Assembly (NCBI GenBank): GCA_902785485.1
Contig: CACZZA010000014.1
Coordinates: forward strand, 1 to 34,018
DNA length: 34,018 bases
Direction: 5' to 3'
Source of the DNA: an uncultured Ruminococcus sp.
GTDB lineage: Bacteria; Bacillota; Clostridia; Oscillospirales; CAG-272
This document shows positions 12,499 to 27,755 of the stretch, piece by piece. Positions within the stretch are counted from its first letter, which is position 1. Each line of letters starts with the position of its first letter. Both the position numbers and the translations under genes were made by a program. Below the pieces are notes generated by a model. That model was not told the DNA's origin and ran no database searches. It saw only the letters and a list, made by a program, of their open reading frames with translations.

Positions 12499-14433
12499 TT
12501 ACAGAATATCTTCCGACCAACCCTCATTTTCGCCGTACTGTGAAGCCGGAGCGGGACCGAGGATTATCGGTTTGCCGGTCAAAGGATCGTTGCCGGCAAA
12601 ATACTTTTTAAGTCTTATGATGTCAAGAGCAGTCACTTTCCCGTCTCCGTTGGCGTCGGCGCCCTTGCCTACCGTAACGGACGATATACCCGTCTTGGGA
12701 TCGGTCTCTGCGAAATATCTCTTGAGTCTGACTACGTCGTTGATCTCGACCGCACCGTTTGAGTCCGCGTCGCCCCAGATAAAGTCGCGCACGGTCACTT
12801 CATACGACAGTTCGAACGACATAAAATCTACTTTTACGTCGAATTTTCCCGCGGTATTGAAGTCCGGTCCGGTGATCGTGAGATCGGCGACGGAAAGCTC
12901 GACTTCGTCGTCGTTCTTAAGTATCACCTTTGCTTGGAGTCCTGTCGTGTCAAGCTCGCCTTCAAGCAGGTAGTCGGTCCTGACTTCTATCGCGTTCAGA
13001 AGGAACGATTTTATTGCGGTGCGCGGGATGCTGTTCGCGTCGGCGTAAGAAGCGGCTGCGCTGTTTTCACTGCAGACGATGACCGCGTTTCTGCACCTCA
13101 GTACGGCGTCATCTCCTATATCGGTCACGGAGTCCGGAATGAAGATATACTTAAGAGACGGCTTACGTTCGAAAGCGCGCGGGAGTATGGTCGTCGTTCC
13201 GTTCTTTACGACCGCGTATTCGGCTCCGCCCTTGAAGCGCAGGACCGCGCCCGCGTCGTCGTAGTTGACTCCGTCGGGAAGACTGCTCATCTCGGTCGTT
13301 TCAAACGTGAGCGTTTCCGACCAGTCCGAGAACAGATCGTCCGTTTCGGGCTGATAACAGAAGTAGCGGCAGCGGACCTCGATCTCGGTGTCGTCCTCTA
13401 TCGTCAGGTGCGCTCCGGTCGCGAGATGCAACAGCGGACATTCCATTTCGCCCGCTTTTATATCACGCTCCGCGTTTTGCATCTGGAGCCATTCCGCATC
13501 GCCTTTAACGCGGGCGTAGGTCTCGATAAAGAGGCTGCCGCCCTTTGCCGTCACTTTTGCGACGTTCTGTGCGAGCTCGTCCGGAACGGTCAGCGTGAAC
13601 GCGGCGACCGGACAGCCGTTGAAATCCCTGTCGGTCAGATAGAGAGACGTGATGACGGGAGCCTTAAGGTCTTCCTTCGTCACGGGGTCTGAGGAAGGAG
13701 CGTCCTTGCCGACAGCCGCGGCGTCCGACCAGTCGGAATAGTAATGTTTCTCGACAAGCTCTTCGTTTTCGGTATAACGCGCAGTGACGTCAAAACGCGC
13801 GCGGTAATAGACGGTGTGCTCGGTGTAGTCTATATACAGACTCATATCGCCGTCTCCCGCGTCTTTATATTCATACTGTCCTTCGTTCAGCTGATCCTTG
13901 AGGCCGGGAGTCTTCGTATCGGGATTTCCGTTGAACTCATCCTCGTTTATTCCCCTTGTGACCCATACATAGTTTGCGGTCACGGCCGGATAAAGCAATG
14001 CATCCACAACGTCCCACGGTCCGAGACGCATATGGTATTCTTCGTCATAGCCGGTCCCGTATTCGCCGTAGTCCCAGAACTCGTTGTAATGCCAGCCGGA
14101 GACCGCGTCCTCCACGTCGTCGACCGCCCAGTCGATCTGCGTGTTGATCCAGATATCGTCAAGTCCGTACTGCGCCAGAAACTCCTCCCTGGTCTCGTTT
14201 TCCCCCGCCTGCTCAAGCAACTCGAAGAATTCGGTGATCCCGTTGCCGAGACTGTAGGTGACGATCGTCGAGGTCGGCGAATCGCTGCCTTCCTGCCACT
14301 CGGCGTAGACGTAAGCGGGCGCTGAGAGCTCGAACGGCAGCTTGCTTTCGGCGACCGGAGCGGCGAACGCCGAGAGCGGCAGACAGCCGAGCGTCAGCAA
14401 AAGACAAATGACGAGCGATGTGATCCTTTTCAT
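12499..14433 (-). CDS. Secreted dockerin-containing protein with Ig-like and LRR segments
   Basis: 644 residues with a clear signal peptide (SLVICLLLTLGCLPLSAFAA). Residues about 30-250 and 260-380 are acidic, Trp/Tyr-rich and unassigned. Around 400-450 is a single BspA-type leucine-rich repeat (SLKYIFIPDSVTDIGDDAVL). Around 465-545 is a bacterial Ig-like (Big_3-type) domain. Around 548-620 is a type I dockerin: two calcium loops, GDADSNGAVEINDVVRLKRY and GADANGDGKVTALDIIRLKK. A short Gly/Pro tail follows. Dockerins bind cohesins in cellulosome-like assemblies; no cohesin or catalytic domain is visible here. Extracellular; role unknown. Confidence 0.85.
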   Translation of the reverse strand: MKRITSLVICLLLTLGCLPLSAFAAPVAESKLPFELSAPAYVYAEWQEGSDSPTSTIVTYSLGNGITEFFELLEQAGENETREEFLAQYGLDDIWINTQIDWAVDDVEDAVSGWHYNEFWDYGEYGTGYDEEYHMRLGPWDVVDALLYPAVTANYVWVTRGINEDEFNGNPDTKTPGLKDQLNEGQYEYKDAGDGDMSLYIDYTEHTVYYRARFDVTARYTENEELVEKHYYSDWSDAAAVGKDAPSSDPVTKEDLKAPVITSLYLTDRDFNGCPVAAFTLTVPDELAQNVAKVTAKGGSLFIETYARVKGDAEWLQMQNAERDIKAGEMECPLLHLATGAHLTIEDDTEIEVRCRYFCYQPETDDLFSDWSETLTFETTEMSSLPDGVNYDDAGAVLRFKGGAEYAVVKNGTTTILPRAFERKPSLKYIFIPDSVTDIGDDAVLRCRNAVIVCSENSAAASYADANSIPRTAIKSFLLNAIEVRTDYLLEGELDTTGLQAKVILKNDDEVELSVADLTITGPDFNTAGKFDVKVDFMSFELSYEVTVRDFIWGDADSNGAVEINDVVRLKRYFAETDPKTGISSVTVGKGADANGDGKVTALDIIRLKKYFAGNDPLTGKPIILGPAPASQYGENEGWSEDIL

Positions 14434-18295: not shown

Positions 18296-18943
18296 ATGGA
18301 GGAAGCTGCGAAAGCGGTCGAAAAATACGGAATTCTTCCGTTTTTCACAAACTCAGTCGACGGCTTTTCGCTCGAAGAAACGGTCACTCCGGATATCTGG
18401 TTCACCGACAAAGAAGGTCCGTGGGAGTGGAAAGGTCCGCTCATCCGTAAAAAAGGCTTTTTCTACGGCAAATTCTTCGAAAACAAGGCGGCGTACGTCG
18501 CCCCGGAATGGTTTTTACGTCTCGCGAATTACAGGCGCAACGGCTACGACTTCGACGCGAGATACGACGACGGACTCGCCTCGCGGCGCGACCTCGACCT
18601 GTATTCTCTCATAGCGGCGAACGCGCCCGTCGTATCCAAAAAGCTCCGCGAGACAGGCAACTACGGCAAGAACGGGATAAAAGGCTTCGATACGATGATA
18701 ACGAGACTCCAGATGCAGTGCTACGTCAATATAAACGACTTCGTCTACACCCTCGACAGGCACGGCAAGCCTTATGGATGGGGCGTCGGGGTCTACACGA
18801 CTCCCGAGCTCTTCGCGGGAGAAGCTTTCACGAAAAACGTTTATAAAGAAACGCCCGAGGAGTCTTACGAGGCGCTTTTCACACACCTGCGCACGCTCTT
18901 TCCCAAGGAGAGCGAAAAGAACTTAAAAACATTTCTCGGATAA
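18296..18943 (+). CDS. AlkZ-related protein (short winged-helix family)
   Basis: 215 residues from the first ATG. Motifs recall short clostridial proteins that, from memory, are named AlkZ-related: DIWFTDKEGPWEWKGPLIRK, FYGKFFENKAAYVAPEWFLR, NYRRNGYDFDARYDDG and YGWGVGVYTTPELF. Relatives are linked to the AlkZ/YcaQ DNA glycosylase superfamily but are about half as long; activity is unproven. The start is uncertain: the frame stays open back to 18245 with family-like residues, no in-frame ATG/GTG/TTG occurs there, and the ATG at 18296 lacks a clear ribosome site, while GGGGGTGA sits at 18251-18258. A terminator follows. Confidence 0.8.
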   Translation: MEEAAKAVEKYGILPFFTNSVDGFSLEETVTPDIWFTDKEGPWEWKGPLIRKKGFFYGKFFENKAAYVAPEWFLRLANYRRNGYDFDARYDDGLASRRDLDLYSLIAANAPVVSKKLRETGNYGKNGIKGFDTMITRLQMQCYVNINDFVYTLDRHGKPYGWGVGVYTTPELFAGEAFTKNVYKETPEESYEALFTHLRTLFPKESEKNLKTFLG

Positions 18944-20017: not shown

Positions 20018-20032
20018 CGCCTTTCCGTTTTG

Positions 20033-20048
20033 GTTAGCGCAGGCTAAC
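20033..20048 (-). promoter_or_regulatory. DtxR/IdeR-like operator, site 1
   Basis: The palindrome GTTAGC-GCAG-GCTAAC lies between the transcription start and the DUF3793 start codon. It matches the core of the DtxR/IdeR iron box (TTAGGTTAGSCTAACCTAA) in its TTAG/CTAA arms. Confidence 0.7.
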
Positions 20049-20090
20049 TGTTCGGGTAAATTATCGACCTCCGCCGAGGTCTCCGTGTCG

Positions 20091-20145
20091 GTTAGCCTAT
20101 GCTAACCACCACGGTCATAATACCATATCCTTTAAGCTTTGTCAA
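20091..20145 (-). promoter_or_regulatory. DUF3793-flavodoxin promoter with DtxR-like operator, site 2
   Basis: On the minus strand TTGACA (20140-20145), 17-bp spacer, TATTAT (20117-20122). The palindrome GTTAGC-CTAT-GCTAAC at 20091-20106 covers the expected transcription start, the place for a repressor. It is 58 bp from site 1. Confidence 0.85.
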
Positions 20146-20280
20146 TAGTTGCGCGTTATTTTTTCAAGAGGACCCTTTTCGGATCCGCCCGTATTGTTAT
20201 TCCCGCGACAGCGCAATTTCATACGCAAGCGGGTTTAATAAAACAAATATTTCTATCAACGATTGAGTTTTTCGTCAGAT
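20146..20280. other. Spacer between the divergent DUF3793 and HTH-kinase promoters
   Basis: No gene, RNA or repeat recognised. A loose CCCGC/GCGGG inverted pair is present at about 20202-20235. Confidence 0.4.
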
Positions 20281-20329
20281 TTCTATTATTTTTCTATTGA
20301 AAAACCGGTTATTTCGATTTATAATAGAA
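20281..20329 (+). promoter_or_regulatory. murQ-operon promoter flanked by an inverted repeat
   Basis: TTGAAA at 20297-20302, 17-bp spacer, TATAAT at 20320-20325. The spacer begins with the palindrome AACCGGTT (20303-20310). Exact 9-bp inverted repeats, TTCTATTAT (20281-20289) and ATAATAGAA (20321-20329), flank it 40 bp apart. Any of these could be the operator of the HTH domain encoded next. Confidence 0.75.
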
Positions 20330-20344
20330 TATGAGGTGAAGAAA

Positions 20345-21451
20345 ATGAAGCGATACACCGAAGTCGGGAGCGCGATAAAACGTCTCCGCGAGAAAAAAGG
20401 ACTGACGCAGATCTCTCTTGCGGAAATGATCGGCGTTTCGTTCCAGGCAGTGAGCGCCTGGGAGCGCGGAGCTTCGCTGCCCGACCTTTACAACGCGGCG
20501 GCTCTGGCAAATAAACTCGGAGTGACGGTAGATACGCTCCTCAGGAGCGGCGCGGACGAATACCGCATAGGCGTCGACGCGGGCGGAACGAAGACAGAAT
20601 TCATGCTCGTCGACGCGCAGGGGCGCGAGGTCGAGCGTTTTTCGCTCGGGGGAGCGAACCCGAACGACGTGTCTCTCGATCACACCGCGGAAGTACTTTC
20701 ATCCGGACTCGACCGTCTTACCGTCGGCAGGAACGTCGCCTCCGTATTCTGCGGAGTCGCGGGCGTCACAGCGGGAGACAACGCCGTTCTGCTTAGGGAA
20801 ACGCTGACAAAACGGTACGGAACGCGCATATTCGTCGAAAGCGACGTATCCAATCTCCTTTTTCTCGGAGAAAGGGAAGGGTGCAAGGGTGCCGTCATCT
20901 GCGGAACAGGCTCCGTTGTTTTCGTTCGTACCGACCGAGGCGACGTCCGGGTCGGAGGCTGGGGATACCTGTTTGACGAAAAAGGCTCGGGGTACGACGT
21001 AGGGAAGGACGCCCTGCGTCACGCGCTCGCTTGCCTCGACGGTCTGGAAAAGCCGGACGAGCTTTCAAAAAAAGTCGAAGAAAGGCTCGGGAAAGGGATA
21101 TGGAAAAGTCTGTCCGAAATATACAAAAAAGGACGTCCGTATATAGCGTCGTTCGCGCCGGACGTCGTAGAGCTTGCAAAATCGGGCGACCCGAAAGCGG
21201 AGTCGATACTGAAAACCAACGCCGAGAGGCTCGGTAAGATCGTTTCGCTCGCGTCCGGAAAATACGGAGCGGGAGACGTTCTGCTCGCGTCGGGCGGATT
21301 TTTCAACAACGAAATATATTTGAAAATGGTCGAAGAAGCCTCGGGAAAAAGGCTTATAAAAAGTACGCTCGCGCCGGTCGTCGGCGCGTGCGCGGGGAGC
21401 TTTGAAAGAGCGGGAGCAAAGGCTCCCGACGGACTGTTTGAAGGGAGATAA
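20345..21451 (+). CDS. Xre HTH domain fused to a BadF/NAGK-type sugar kinase (MurK-like)
   Basis: 368 residues from the ATG at 20345 with GAGGTGA upstream; the frame open from 20297 overlaps the promoter. Residues about 8-66 are a Cro/C1 HTH (KGLTQISLAEMIGVSFQAVS). Residues about 73-360 are an ASKHA kinase of the N-acetylglucosamine kinase/BadF group: GVDAGGTKTE, the CGTGSVVFV and GGWGYLFDEKGSGYDVGKDA phosphate loops, and ASGGFFNNEIYL near the adenosine site. The gene ends 2 nt before murQ. MurK kinases phosphorylate MurNAc/GlcNAc and work with MurQ, so the enzyme part fits MurNAc recycling. The HTH suggests a sugar-sensing self-regulator; that is inference. Confidence 0.9.
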   Translation: MKRYTEVGSAIKRLREKKGLTQISLAEMIGVSFQAVSAWERGASLPDLYNAAALANKLGVTVDTLLRSGADEYRIGVDAGGTKTEFMLVDAQGREVERFSLGGANPNDVSLDHTAEVLSSGLDRLTVGRNVASVFCGVAGVTAGDNAVLLRETLTKRYGTRIFVESDVSNLLFLGEREGCKGAVICGTGSVVFVRTDRGDVRVGGWGYLFDEKGSGYDVGKDALRHALACLDGLEKPDELSKKVEERLGKGIWKSLSEIYKKGRPYIASFAPDVVELAKSGDPKAESILKTNAERLGKIVSLASGKYGAGDVLLASGGFFNNEIYLKMVEEASGKRLIKSTLAPVVGACAGSFERAGAKAPDGLFEGR

Positions 21452-21453
21452 AA

Positions 21454-22263
21454 ATGAAACTTAACGAAACCGAAAAAAGAAATCCGCGGTCGATGAACTT
21501 TGACAAAATGTCGACCCGCGAGATGATAGAACTGATGAACGACGAAAACAGACGTTCGGTCGAAGCGGTCGAGCGCGCCCTCGACTCGGTCGAAAAAGCG
21601 GTCGACGCGATAGCCGAGGCGTTCGGACGCGGCAACAGCCTTATCTATATCGGCGCGGGCACGTCGGGAAGGCTCGGGATACAGGACGCCGCGGAGTGCG
21701 GACCTACGTTCGGAGTGCCCGAGGGAACGGTCAAAGCGATCATAGCGGGCGGCAGAGAACGCGTATTCACCCCCGCCGAAAACGCGGAGGACGTCGAAGA
21801 GAACGGACGCGCGGACATTCTCAAAGAGTGCCGCCCCGGAGACGTCGTCGTAGGGATCTCCGCCGCGGGAGGAGCGAGATACGTCGTCGGCGCGCTCAAC
21901 GCCGCAAAGAAAAACGGCTGTTTCACCGTCGCGCTGACTAACAACACCGGCACCGCGATAGAAAAAGAGGCGGACGTCGCCATCGTTTGCGAGACCGGAC
22001 CCGAGGTCATAACGGGATCGACCCGTCTCAAAGCGGGCAACAGTCAGAAATTCGTCCTCAATATGCTGACCACCTGCGCTATGGCAAAGACAGGAAAGGT
22101 CTGCGAAAACCTTATGATAAACCTCAAGCCGTCGAACGACAAGCTCCGCGCGAGAGTCATAAGGATCACGTCCGATCTGCTCGGAATAACGCAGGAGGAA
22201 GCGGAGGAAAAACTCAAAAAACACTCCTTCAGCATTCGCGAGACCGTGGACGCGGAAAAATAA
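21454..22263 (+). CDS. murQ: N-acetylmuramic acid 6-phosphate etherase
   Basis: 269 residues, about 30 shorter than usual, missing most of the C-terminal helical tail. The SIS fold is clear: IYIGAGTSGRLGIQDAAECG (E of DAAEC is a catalytic acid), FTPAENAEDVEENGRADI (second Glu), VVGISAAGGARYV and ITGSTRLKAGNSQKFVLNML. MurQ cleaves the lactyl ether of MurNAc-6-P to give GlcNAc-6-P. The kinase gene 2 nt upstream provides the phosphate in place of a PTS, as in the clostridial MurK-MurQ route. A strong terminator follows. Confidence 0.95.
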   Translation: MKLNETEKRNPRSMNFDKMSTREMIELMNDENRRSVEAVERALDSVEKAVDAIAEAFGRGNSLIYIGAGTSGRLGIQDAAECGPTFGVPEGTVKAIIAGGRERVFTPAENAEDVEENGRADILKECRPGDVVVGISAAGGARYVVGALNAAKKNGCFTVALTNNTGTAIEKEADVAIVCETGPEVITGSTRLKAGNSQKFVLNMLTTCAMAKTGKVCENLMINLKPSNDKLRARVIRITSDLLGITQEEAEEKLKKHSFSIRETVDAEK

Positions 22264-26930: not shown

Positions 26931-27755
26931 TCACTCCGTCAGGGCGGCGCCGATGACGGTGCTGAACTGCGCGTGTTCCGGGATGATGAAGCGGATGCCG
27001 AACAACGCCTCGAGGTTACGGAAAACGTCGGTTATCTGCGGTACTACGGTCATATTCCCCGTGAGGACGACGTTTTCGATCTTATGTTCGCGGGCGGCGA
27101 ACACGGCGAGCATACCGGCGACCTCGAACACCATATTGATAATGCCGAGCGCGATGTCGCTCTTCGTCGCGACGTCGGAGACCTTTCCGAAGTTCGACGC
27201 GGTCAGTATCTCGGGGAGCCCGCCCCAGCTCTCTTTTTTGGTTATATCGCGTACTCTCAGGTCTACGTTGTTGAGGTCTCCCCCTTTGGCAAGCTCGACT
27301 ATGTGGTCGATCTCGTCCATCTTGAGTATCTGTTTCGACAGTCCCATCAGCGTGCCTCCGCCGACGCCGGTGCCTCCGAGATAAACGACCTTCTGTCCGC
27401 GTTTCGCGTGTACGAGCGCGGTGCCCGTGCCGAGAGAAACGACGATCGCCTCGTCGAGCTTTGAAAGGAAGAGTCCGCCGCGTCCGACCGAGTCAAACTC
27501 GGGGACGTTCACGCATTTAAGGTCGTACAGAGGCTTCGTTATATAAGTCGAGCCGACGCCCGTGACCATGATCTTTTCTATCTCGTCAAGGCCGATCCCG
27601 TTCTCGGACGTGAAGCGCCCGAAGGCGCCGTAGACCGAGGTGATCTGATCCGTCGCGCGTACGAAAAGGGGCGAGATCAGCGCCTTTTTTTCATCAAATC
27701 CGACTATTTTCGTGGTGCTTCCGCCCACGTCGATACCGAGTACGTATTTTCCCAT
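26931..27755 (-). CDS. coaW: Type II pantothenate kinase
   Basis: 274 residues of the ASKHA fold: LGIDVGGSTTKIVGFDE (phosphate 1), VTGVGSTYI, VVSLGTGTALVHA (phosphate 2), LGGTGVGGGTLMGLS and VVLTGNMTVVPQI (adenosine site). It phosphorylates pantothenate, the first step of CoA synthesis. The GGAG site is 8 nt before the ATG. An unknown membrane protein lies 33 nt upstream on the same strand and likely shares the transcript. Confidence 0.93.
   Translation of the reverse strand: MGKYVLGIDVGGSTTKIVGFDEKKALISPLFVRATDQITSVYGAFGRFTSENGIGLDEIEKIMVTGVGSTYITKPLYDLKCVNVPEFDSVGRGGLFLSKLDEAIVVSLGTGTALVHAKRGQKVVYLGGTGVGGGTLMGLSKQILKMDEIDHIVELAKGGDLNNVDLRVRDITKKESWGGLPEILTASNFGKVSDVATKSDIALGIINMVFEVAGMLAVFAAREHKIENVVLTGNMTVVPQITDVFRNLEALFGIRFIIPEHAQFSTVIGAALTE

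Follow-up and report, generated by a model that had tools for sequence, protein, structure and literature searches.

A Cro/cI-type HTH fused to a MurK-type kinase beside murQ in an uncultured Ruminococcus sp.: a predicted autoregulator of MurNAc recycling

Introduction

The ROK repressors (NagC, Mlc and Lmo0178), in which a winged HTH is combined with an ASKHA-fold sugar-binding domain, resemble in their combination of parts the HTH-kinase fusion described here. BzdR of Azoarcus also has an N-terminal XRE HTH on a kinase-fold domain, in this case a shikimate-kinase-like domain with no detectable kinase activity, and regulates a catabolic promoter; its authors engineered an HTH-kinase chimera, Q1, as a 'missing link', and the HTH on an active shikimate kinase responded to substrate (PMC3602430). 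The fusion differs from BzdR in its kinase fold and pathway, in retaining the catalytic residues and in its much shorter linker, and the Q1 chimera with its active SKI is its nearest functional analogue. NadR of Enterobacterales, a 'trigger enzyme', carries an N-terminal HTH on active salvage enzymes of the same pathway, including a kinase (PMC12421817), although the kinase is of another family, there is an extra NMN adenylyltransferase domain and several NAD genes are repressed.

The MurK proteins of Clostridium acetobutylicum (PDB 8zo3) and Tannerella forsythia (PMC10465942) share the kinase domain family and probably the reaction of the fusion but carry no HTH; the T. forsythia enzyme shows induced fit (PMC10465942). 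Control of murQ has been described in Escherichia coli, in which the operon is repressed in the absence of MurNAc-6P by a separate MurNAc-6P-responsive protein of other folds, MurR (RpiR/SIS family), and MurR-like genes are present in Bacillus subtilis and Staphylococcus aureus (PMC5061867).

Here we analyse a window of 34,018 nucleotides, the whole of a stretch of contig CACZZA010000014.1 from an uncultured Ruminococcus sp. (GCA_902785485.1). The open-access literature contained no report of an HTH-MurK fusion. If our reading is correct, one protein would control the recycling of peptidoglycan sugars in bacteria that lack a MurR-type regulator, and the fusion would be a natural counterpart of the step built synthetically with BzdR (PMC3602430), that is, the joining of a DNA-binding domain to a kinase with intact catalytic residues.

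Organization of the locus

The initial annotation had proposed that a Cro-type HTH is fused to a MurK/NAGK-like kinase directly before murQ, and the ORFs (20345-21451 and 21454-22263, forward strand) and their Pfam domains agree with this. The features of the locus are as follows.

20297..20302, + strand: -35 element TTGAAA (predicted promoter)
20320..20325, + strand: -10 element TATAAT, 17-bp spacer (predicted promoter)
20345..21451, + strand: HTH-kinase fusion ORF, 368 aa, stop codon counted in (Pfam, sequence matches, AlphaFold2)
20375..20536, + strand: Cro/cI-type HTH, residues 11-64 (HTH_3 E 5.5e-16, AlphaFold2 helices, alignment with P22 C2 and dh434)
20567..21388, + strand: NAGK/MurK-type (BadF/BcrA) kinase domain, residues 75-348 (Pfam, alignment, Foldseek)
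21454..22263, + strand: murQ, MurNAc-6-phosphate etherase, 269 aa (NF003915), in the same operon as the fusion, with a 2-bp gap

Both domains of the fusion lie in one frame without a stop, and the ORF is preceded by the SD sequence GAGGTGA and a near-consensus promoter; the gene upstream of it in the window is divergent. The murQ product passes NF003915 (326 bits, cut-off 168) and NF009222 (291, cut-off 255) and falls short of the TIGR00274 equivalog (285 against 302 bits) because of its short C-terminus, as it covers positions 5-268 of 300 in NF003915 and ends about 30 residues before the family models. In related loci the neighbouring MurQ has a similar length. The further statement that no PTS or transporter is nearby holds for sugar transporters, but not for transporters in general, since Pfam identifies MMPL, Na+/H+ exchanger and ZIP genes in the window. 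A single PTS EIIC match is present in the genome, on a different contig.

The HTH domain

The N-terminal domain scores 58.8 bits against HTH_3 (cut-off 23) and so belongs to the XRE (Cro/cI) type. Its nearest solved relatives are P22 C2 (E 1e-6) and the 434 repressors; it shares HTH fold and sequence with these and with lambda cI, which have palindromic operators, as is predicted for the fusion, but are phage regulators without an enzyme domain. Six residues of the HTH core (R15, Q22, S37, W39, E40 and P46) are invariant in 31 aligned fusions. The recognition helix occupies approximately residues 33-40 (FQAVSAWE), and in the dh434 alignment residue 34, a Gln, corresponds to the second Gln in the recognition helix of 434-type repressors. 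In 434 the half-site is ACAA, and this second Gln contacts its second to third base pairs.

The kinase domain

Residues 75-348 match BcrAD_BadFG (E 2.3e-24; 86.8 bits, cut-off 31.5), placing the domain in the BadF/BcrA kinase family. The nearest relatives by sequence are the Sulfolobus tokodaii hexokinase (StHK) and C. acetobutylicum MurK, and the same two proteins head the Foldseek ranking (StHK, TM 0.72; MurK 8zo3, TM 0.66), with the ROK repressor Lmo0178 and Mlc also among the matches. The shikimate-kinase-like C-terminal domain of the BzdR family is replaced here by a BadF/ASKHA domain, and PRK08154 matches residues 5-70 only. The Pfam ROK model gives a partial match of 22.4 bits, below its cut-off of 22.9, so that the difference from ROK repressors drawn in the initial annotation stands: the HTH is of HTH_3 type, and the enzyme part is of the BadF family with kinase catalytic residues kept. 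The score against the NagK equivalog NF046058 (75, cut-off 370) sets the fusion kinase outside that NagK family.

The motifs typical of NAGK/MurK kinases, namely those for the ATP phosphates and the catalytic Asp, are present in all 31 aligned fusions. The phosphate-1 residues D78, G80, G81, K83 and T84 are invariant, as are D167, the catalytic Asp by alignment to StHK, the phosphate-2 residues G187-T188-G189, and D282 and G317 of the adenosine region. This invariance favours an active enzyme over a ROK-like dead sensor. The linkage to murQ and the similarity to C. acetobutylicum MurK point to MurNAc and/or GlcNAc as the likely substrate, on which the fusion is accordingly predicted to act as a kinase. 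Transfer of the MurNAc-specificity residues of T. forsythia MurK (PMC10465942) was tried and rejected: C. acetobutylicum MurK already departs from them beside the catalytic Asp (an N precedes the D), and these residues therefore do not discriminate. A query of the same genome at E<=1e-3 found no second kinase of this family, the remaining matches being to the HTH only. A Fumble-like protein (pantothenate kinase type) of the BadF/ASKHA fold without an HTH is encoded at 26931-27755 on the reverse strand.

An AlphaFold2 model built with the alignment of 31 fusions has both domains formed (mean pLDDT 94.4, pTM 0.81) and a linker of about five residues. The five helices of the cI-type domain (4-17, 22-29, 33-40, 48-58 and 62-66) lead straight to the first strand of the kinase at residue 72.

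Distribution of the fusion

We sampled 394 genomes of the order, 196 of the family, 391 of the class and 398 of the phylum, many of them fragmented, and scanned the fetched loci at ORF level. In these we found 44 fused genes across the class, 40 of them with murQ alongside, so that the domain order that the initial annotation suggested looking for beside murQ does recur and the fusion, far from being absent from all relatives, is conserved among them; the number also shows that the architecture is neither an assembly join nor chance. The murQ gene is nearly always downstream of the fused gene, the exceptions being L062, L066 and L068, where it is upstream. In the phylum sample of 398 genomes the HTH was covered by none of the listed matches outside the class, and the contigs of named relatives gave one match, distant and unfused. 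Within the order the fusion is found in about 18 of 394 genomes, a patchy distribution, and unfused kinases also adjoin murQ (e.g. L012, L013, L024, L026, L034, L070 and L071). A quick tree of the kinase domains places the fused genes in two main clades with unfused members inside each, which indicates that the HTH has been gained or lost during evolution; the tree is compatible with a single origin of the fusion and with more than one. In locus L027 (2592-3977) the fused kinase is followed, instead of murQ, by an unrelated long ORF that by eye is glycoside-hydrolase-like, and a TCTA-N7-TAGA site is kept at -62.

Palindromes upstream of the fused genes

After reading of the upstream regions had suggested short palindromes, all 4-mer inverted repeats with gaps of 0-15 were counted exhaustively. 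In class A (helix xQA[VI]S[NAG]WERG) the top pattern is TCAA-N7-TTGA, found in 8/12 upstream regions, against a maximum of 6 for any pattern in 300 shuffles. In class B (helix xQxxSKWE) it is CAAC-N5-GTTG (12/17, shuffle maximum 5), and in class C (helix xKxxS[KQ]WE) TCTA-N7-TAGA (4/11), which is weak alone because the shuffle maximum is also 4. One 15-bp dyad is common to the three patterns. The pooled 15-bp palindrome is found upstream of 27/44 fused genes and of 0/62 unfused homologues (Fisher 6e-14). This contrast covers a small number of independent lineages, in which 5 pairs are supported and their outcome (2:0:3) is not significant. After shuffling, the palindrome is present on average in 0.8 of the 44 fused upstreams; as the pooled pattern was made once the fused set had been seen, the unfused and shuffled sets are controls and not a blind test. 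The other 17 fused upstreams have no strict site, and some of these genes are inside operons or are murQ-first.

Several further loci bear on the association. The class-level loci L057-L060, L062, L063 and L067, fetched after the motif was first noticed, also carry the palindrome; L047 and L050, which are fused and without murQ, retain it, and the unfused murQ-linked genes are without it. In the murQ-first locus L062 it precedes murQ, at -62 from the -10 (one case), and in murQ-first L066 and L068 no palindrome was found in promoter register upstream of murQ. A pattern search of the window's own genome gave the two promoter sites and one other, which shows rarity only since the pattern was derived from the window's own two sites. 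In class-B genomes TCAACN5GTTGA is often single, at the fusion's own operon (G539, G461, G468 and G725). The same pattern exceeds its reversed-pattern control in G208 (13 vs 4) and G467 (4 vs 0), perhaps a sign of an enlarged regulon in these genomes or of a different regulator that shares the site.

Predicted operator positions and promoter register

Promoters were predicted independently of the palindromes, as the best -10/-35 pair near the start codon; the mean matches to consensus are 5.7/6 and 5.0/6, values that the promoter finder itself favours. Within 300 bp upstream of the fused genes there are 30 exact matches to the palindrome, and the centres of 24 of these lie 59-62 bp before the -10; the exact palindrome was found in 0 of 64 unfused upstreams. 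A motif-free dyad score peaks at -60 with a mean of 2.30, the maximum in 2000 register-shuffled sets being 1.89. In class A, the window's subclass, anchoring on the -35 places matches of at least 7/8 exactly at -37 in 10/12 upstreams and exactly at -8 in 10/12, with a weaker third position at +15 (4/12); the mean number of such matches over all offsets is 0.27. In the window the corresponding positions are as follows.

20252..20266, + strand: O1, predicted operator TCTATCAACGATTGA, centre 61 bp before the first base of the -10 and 38 before the -35
20282..20296, + strand: O2 position TCTATTATTTTTCTA, degenerate here at 6/8 but well conserved in the subclass, with at least 7/8 in 10/12
20314..20328, + strand: O3, probable second operator TCGATTTATAATAGA, overlapping the -10, register as in L015

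Relative to the predicted transcription start, O1, O2 and O3 are at about -72, -43 and -20. Good support for the predicted O2 and O3 is restricted to the window's subclass, and the sites (20252-20328) are all upstream of the region that the initial annotation covered. We take the O2/O3 spacing to resemble that of lambda OR at PRM. Among in-register exact sites a Gln at residue 34 goes with the half-site TCAA(C) and a Lys with TCTA(C); the window's own O1 has mixed TCTA/TTGA half-sites, with Gln34.

Two other candidates were rejected. The element AACCGGTT in the promoter spacer (20304-20311) is not at that place in the relatives' promoters examined. The palindromes GTTAGC-N4-GCTAAC and GGTTAGC-N4-GCTAACC (20031-20050 and 20091-20110), which were considered near 20031-20108, sit before divergent DUF3793 and flavodoxin genes and look like what we presume to be DtxR/IdeR-type metal-regulator boxes.

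Proposed function

Very probably the fusion serves as a dedicated autoregulator while keeping a conserved kinase active site, an enzyme that would both run and control its own pathway; as judged from sequence, it may be a trigger enzyme, with a conserved active site and predicted sites at its own operon. We think it probable that it combines two functions, those of a MurNAc (or MurNAc/GlcNAc) kinase and of a local transcription factor for the kinase-murQ operon, and is switched by its ligand. The initial annotation had also distinguished it from a separate MurR, and the genome assembly indeed contains no MurR-type (HTH_6) regulator.

We infer that the fusion itself binds the predicted operators as a dimer, which would occupy the 15-bp palindrome O1. 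In the subclass it would also bind at one or both of the positions O2, against the -35, and O3, across the -10, perhaps cooperatively. The ASKHA kinase domain would take up MurNAc and ATP. Closure of its cleft during catalysis would be relayed to the two HTHs by way of the very short linker; as the initial annotation suggested for sugar or ATP, binding of MurNAc and/or ATP would then alter DNA affinity, and the supply of MurNAc would set operon expression. Such coupling is plausible given the induced fit of T. forsythia MurK (PMC10465942) and the linker of about five residues. The response would be self-limiting, since the sensor consumes its own signal. Of the two signs of control we slightly favour repression, exerted by the protein without ligand, since the core promoters come close to consensus. 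The spacing from the -35, exact to the base, would be compatible too with an activator that contacts RNA polymerase, or with dual control like that of lambda cI at PRM. More tentatively, the family may represent a natural, active HTH-kinase that carries out the first step of MurNAc recycling and at the same time switches the operon that encodes it, an enzyme part-way to a regulator, with operator specificity rewired together with the Gln/Lys change at residue 34 and a promoter register that points to direct RNA polymerase contact in activation or dual control. With a predicted operator in a fixed register and a link to residue 34, the proposal can be tested directly using one protein and short DNA fragments, and the fusions form a natural series for the study of HTH specificity change.

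The operator evidence would fit equally well an HTH that binds its own promoter and holds an active kinase at a set level through simple feedback, sugar and ATP having no effect on DNA binding. We consider this rather unlikely in view of the very short linker in the AlphaFold2 model, the induced fit of MurK upon substrate binding (PMC10465942) and the precedents of BzdR, its chimeras and NadR, in which DNA binding responds to what the enzyme domain binds (PMC3602430, PMC12421817). It is highly improbable that the kinase domain is a pure sensor, with MurNAc-6P made by another kinase or a PTS: the architecture does resemble that of BzdR and the ROK repressors, Lmo0178 and Mlc are among the Foldseek matches and one PTS EIIC is encoded elsewhere in the genome, but the 31 aligned fusions show no variation in the phosphate-1, phosphate-2, adenosine or catalytic Asp motifs, and the query of the genome found HTH matches and no second kinase of the family.

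The palindromes could instead be bound by a separately encoded regulator, or be terminators of the upstream gene, with the fused HTH acting elsewhere or not at all. Several class B and C palindromes (L009, L028, L030, L053, L057 and L063) are indeed flanked by A/T tracts on either side and form longer stems, in the manner of bidirectional terminators. This explanation is nevertheless very unlikely, as the half-site co-varies with residue 34 of the fused HTH, the palindrome is absent from unfused murQ-linked genes, the class A stems are short and imperfect, and the gene upstream in the window is divergent; the fixed distance to a promoter downstream of the site rules out the terminator reading. 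That the HTH is a coincidental or non-functional appendage without a regulatory role is scarcely credible: its patchy occurrence (about 18/394 genomes in the order sample) might suggest as much, but R15, Q22, S37, W39, E40 and P46 are invariant in 31 fusions, and the palindromes track the HTH in a fixed register.

Other features of the window

A 644-aa protein with a dockerin type I domain is encoded at 12499-14433 on the reverse strand, and a gene for an AlkZ-related protein (Pfam AlkZ-rel) stands alone at 18296-18943 on the forward strand.
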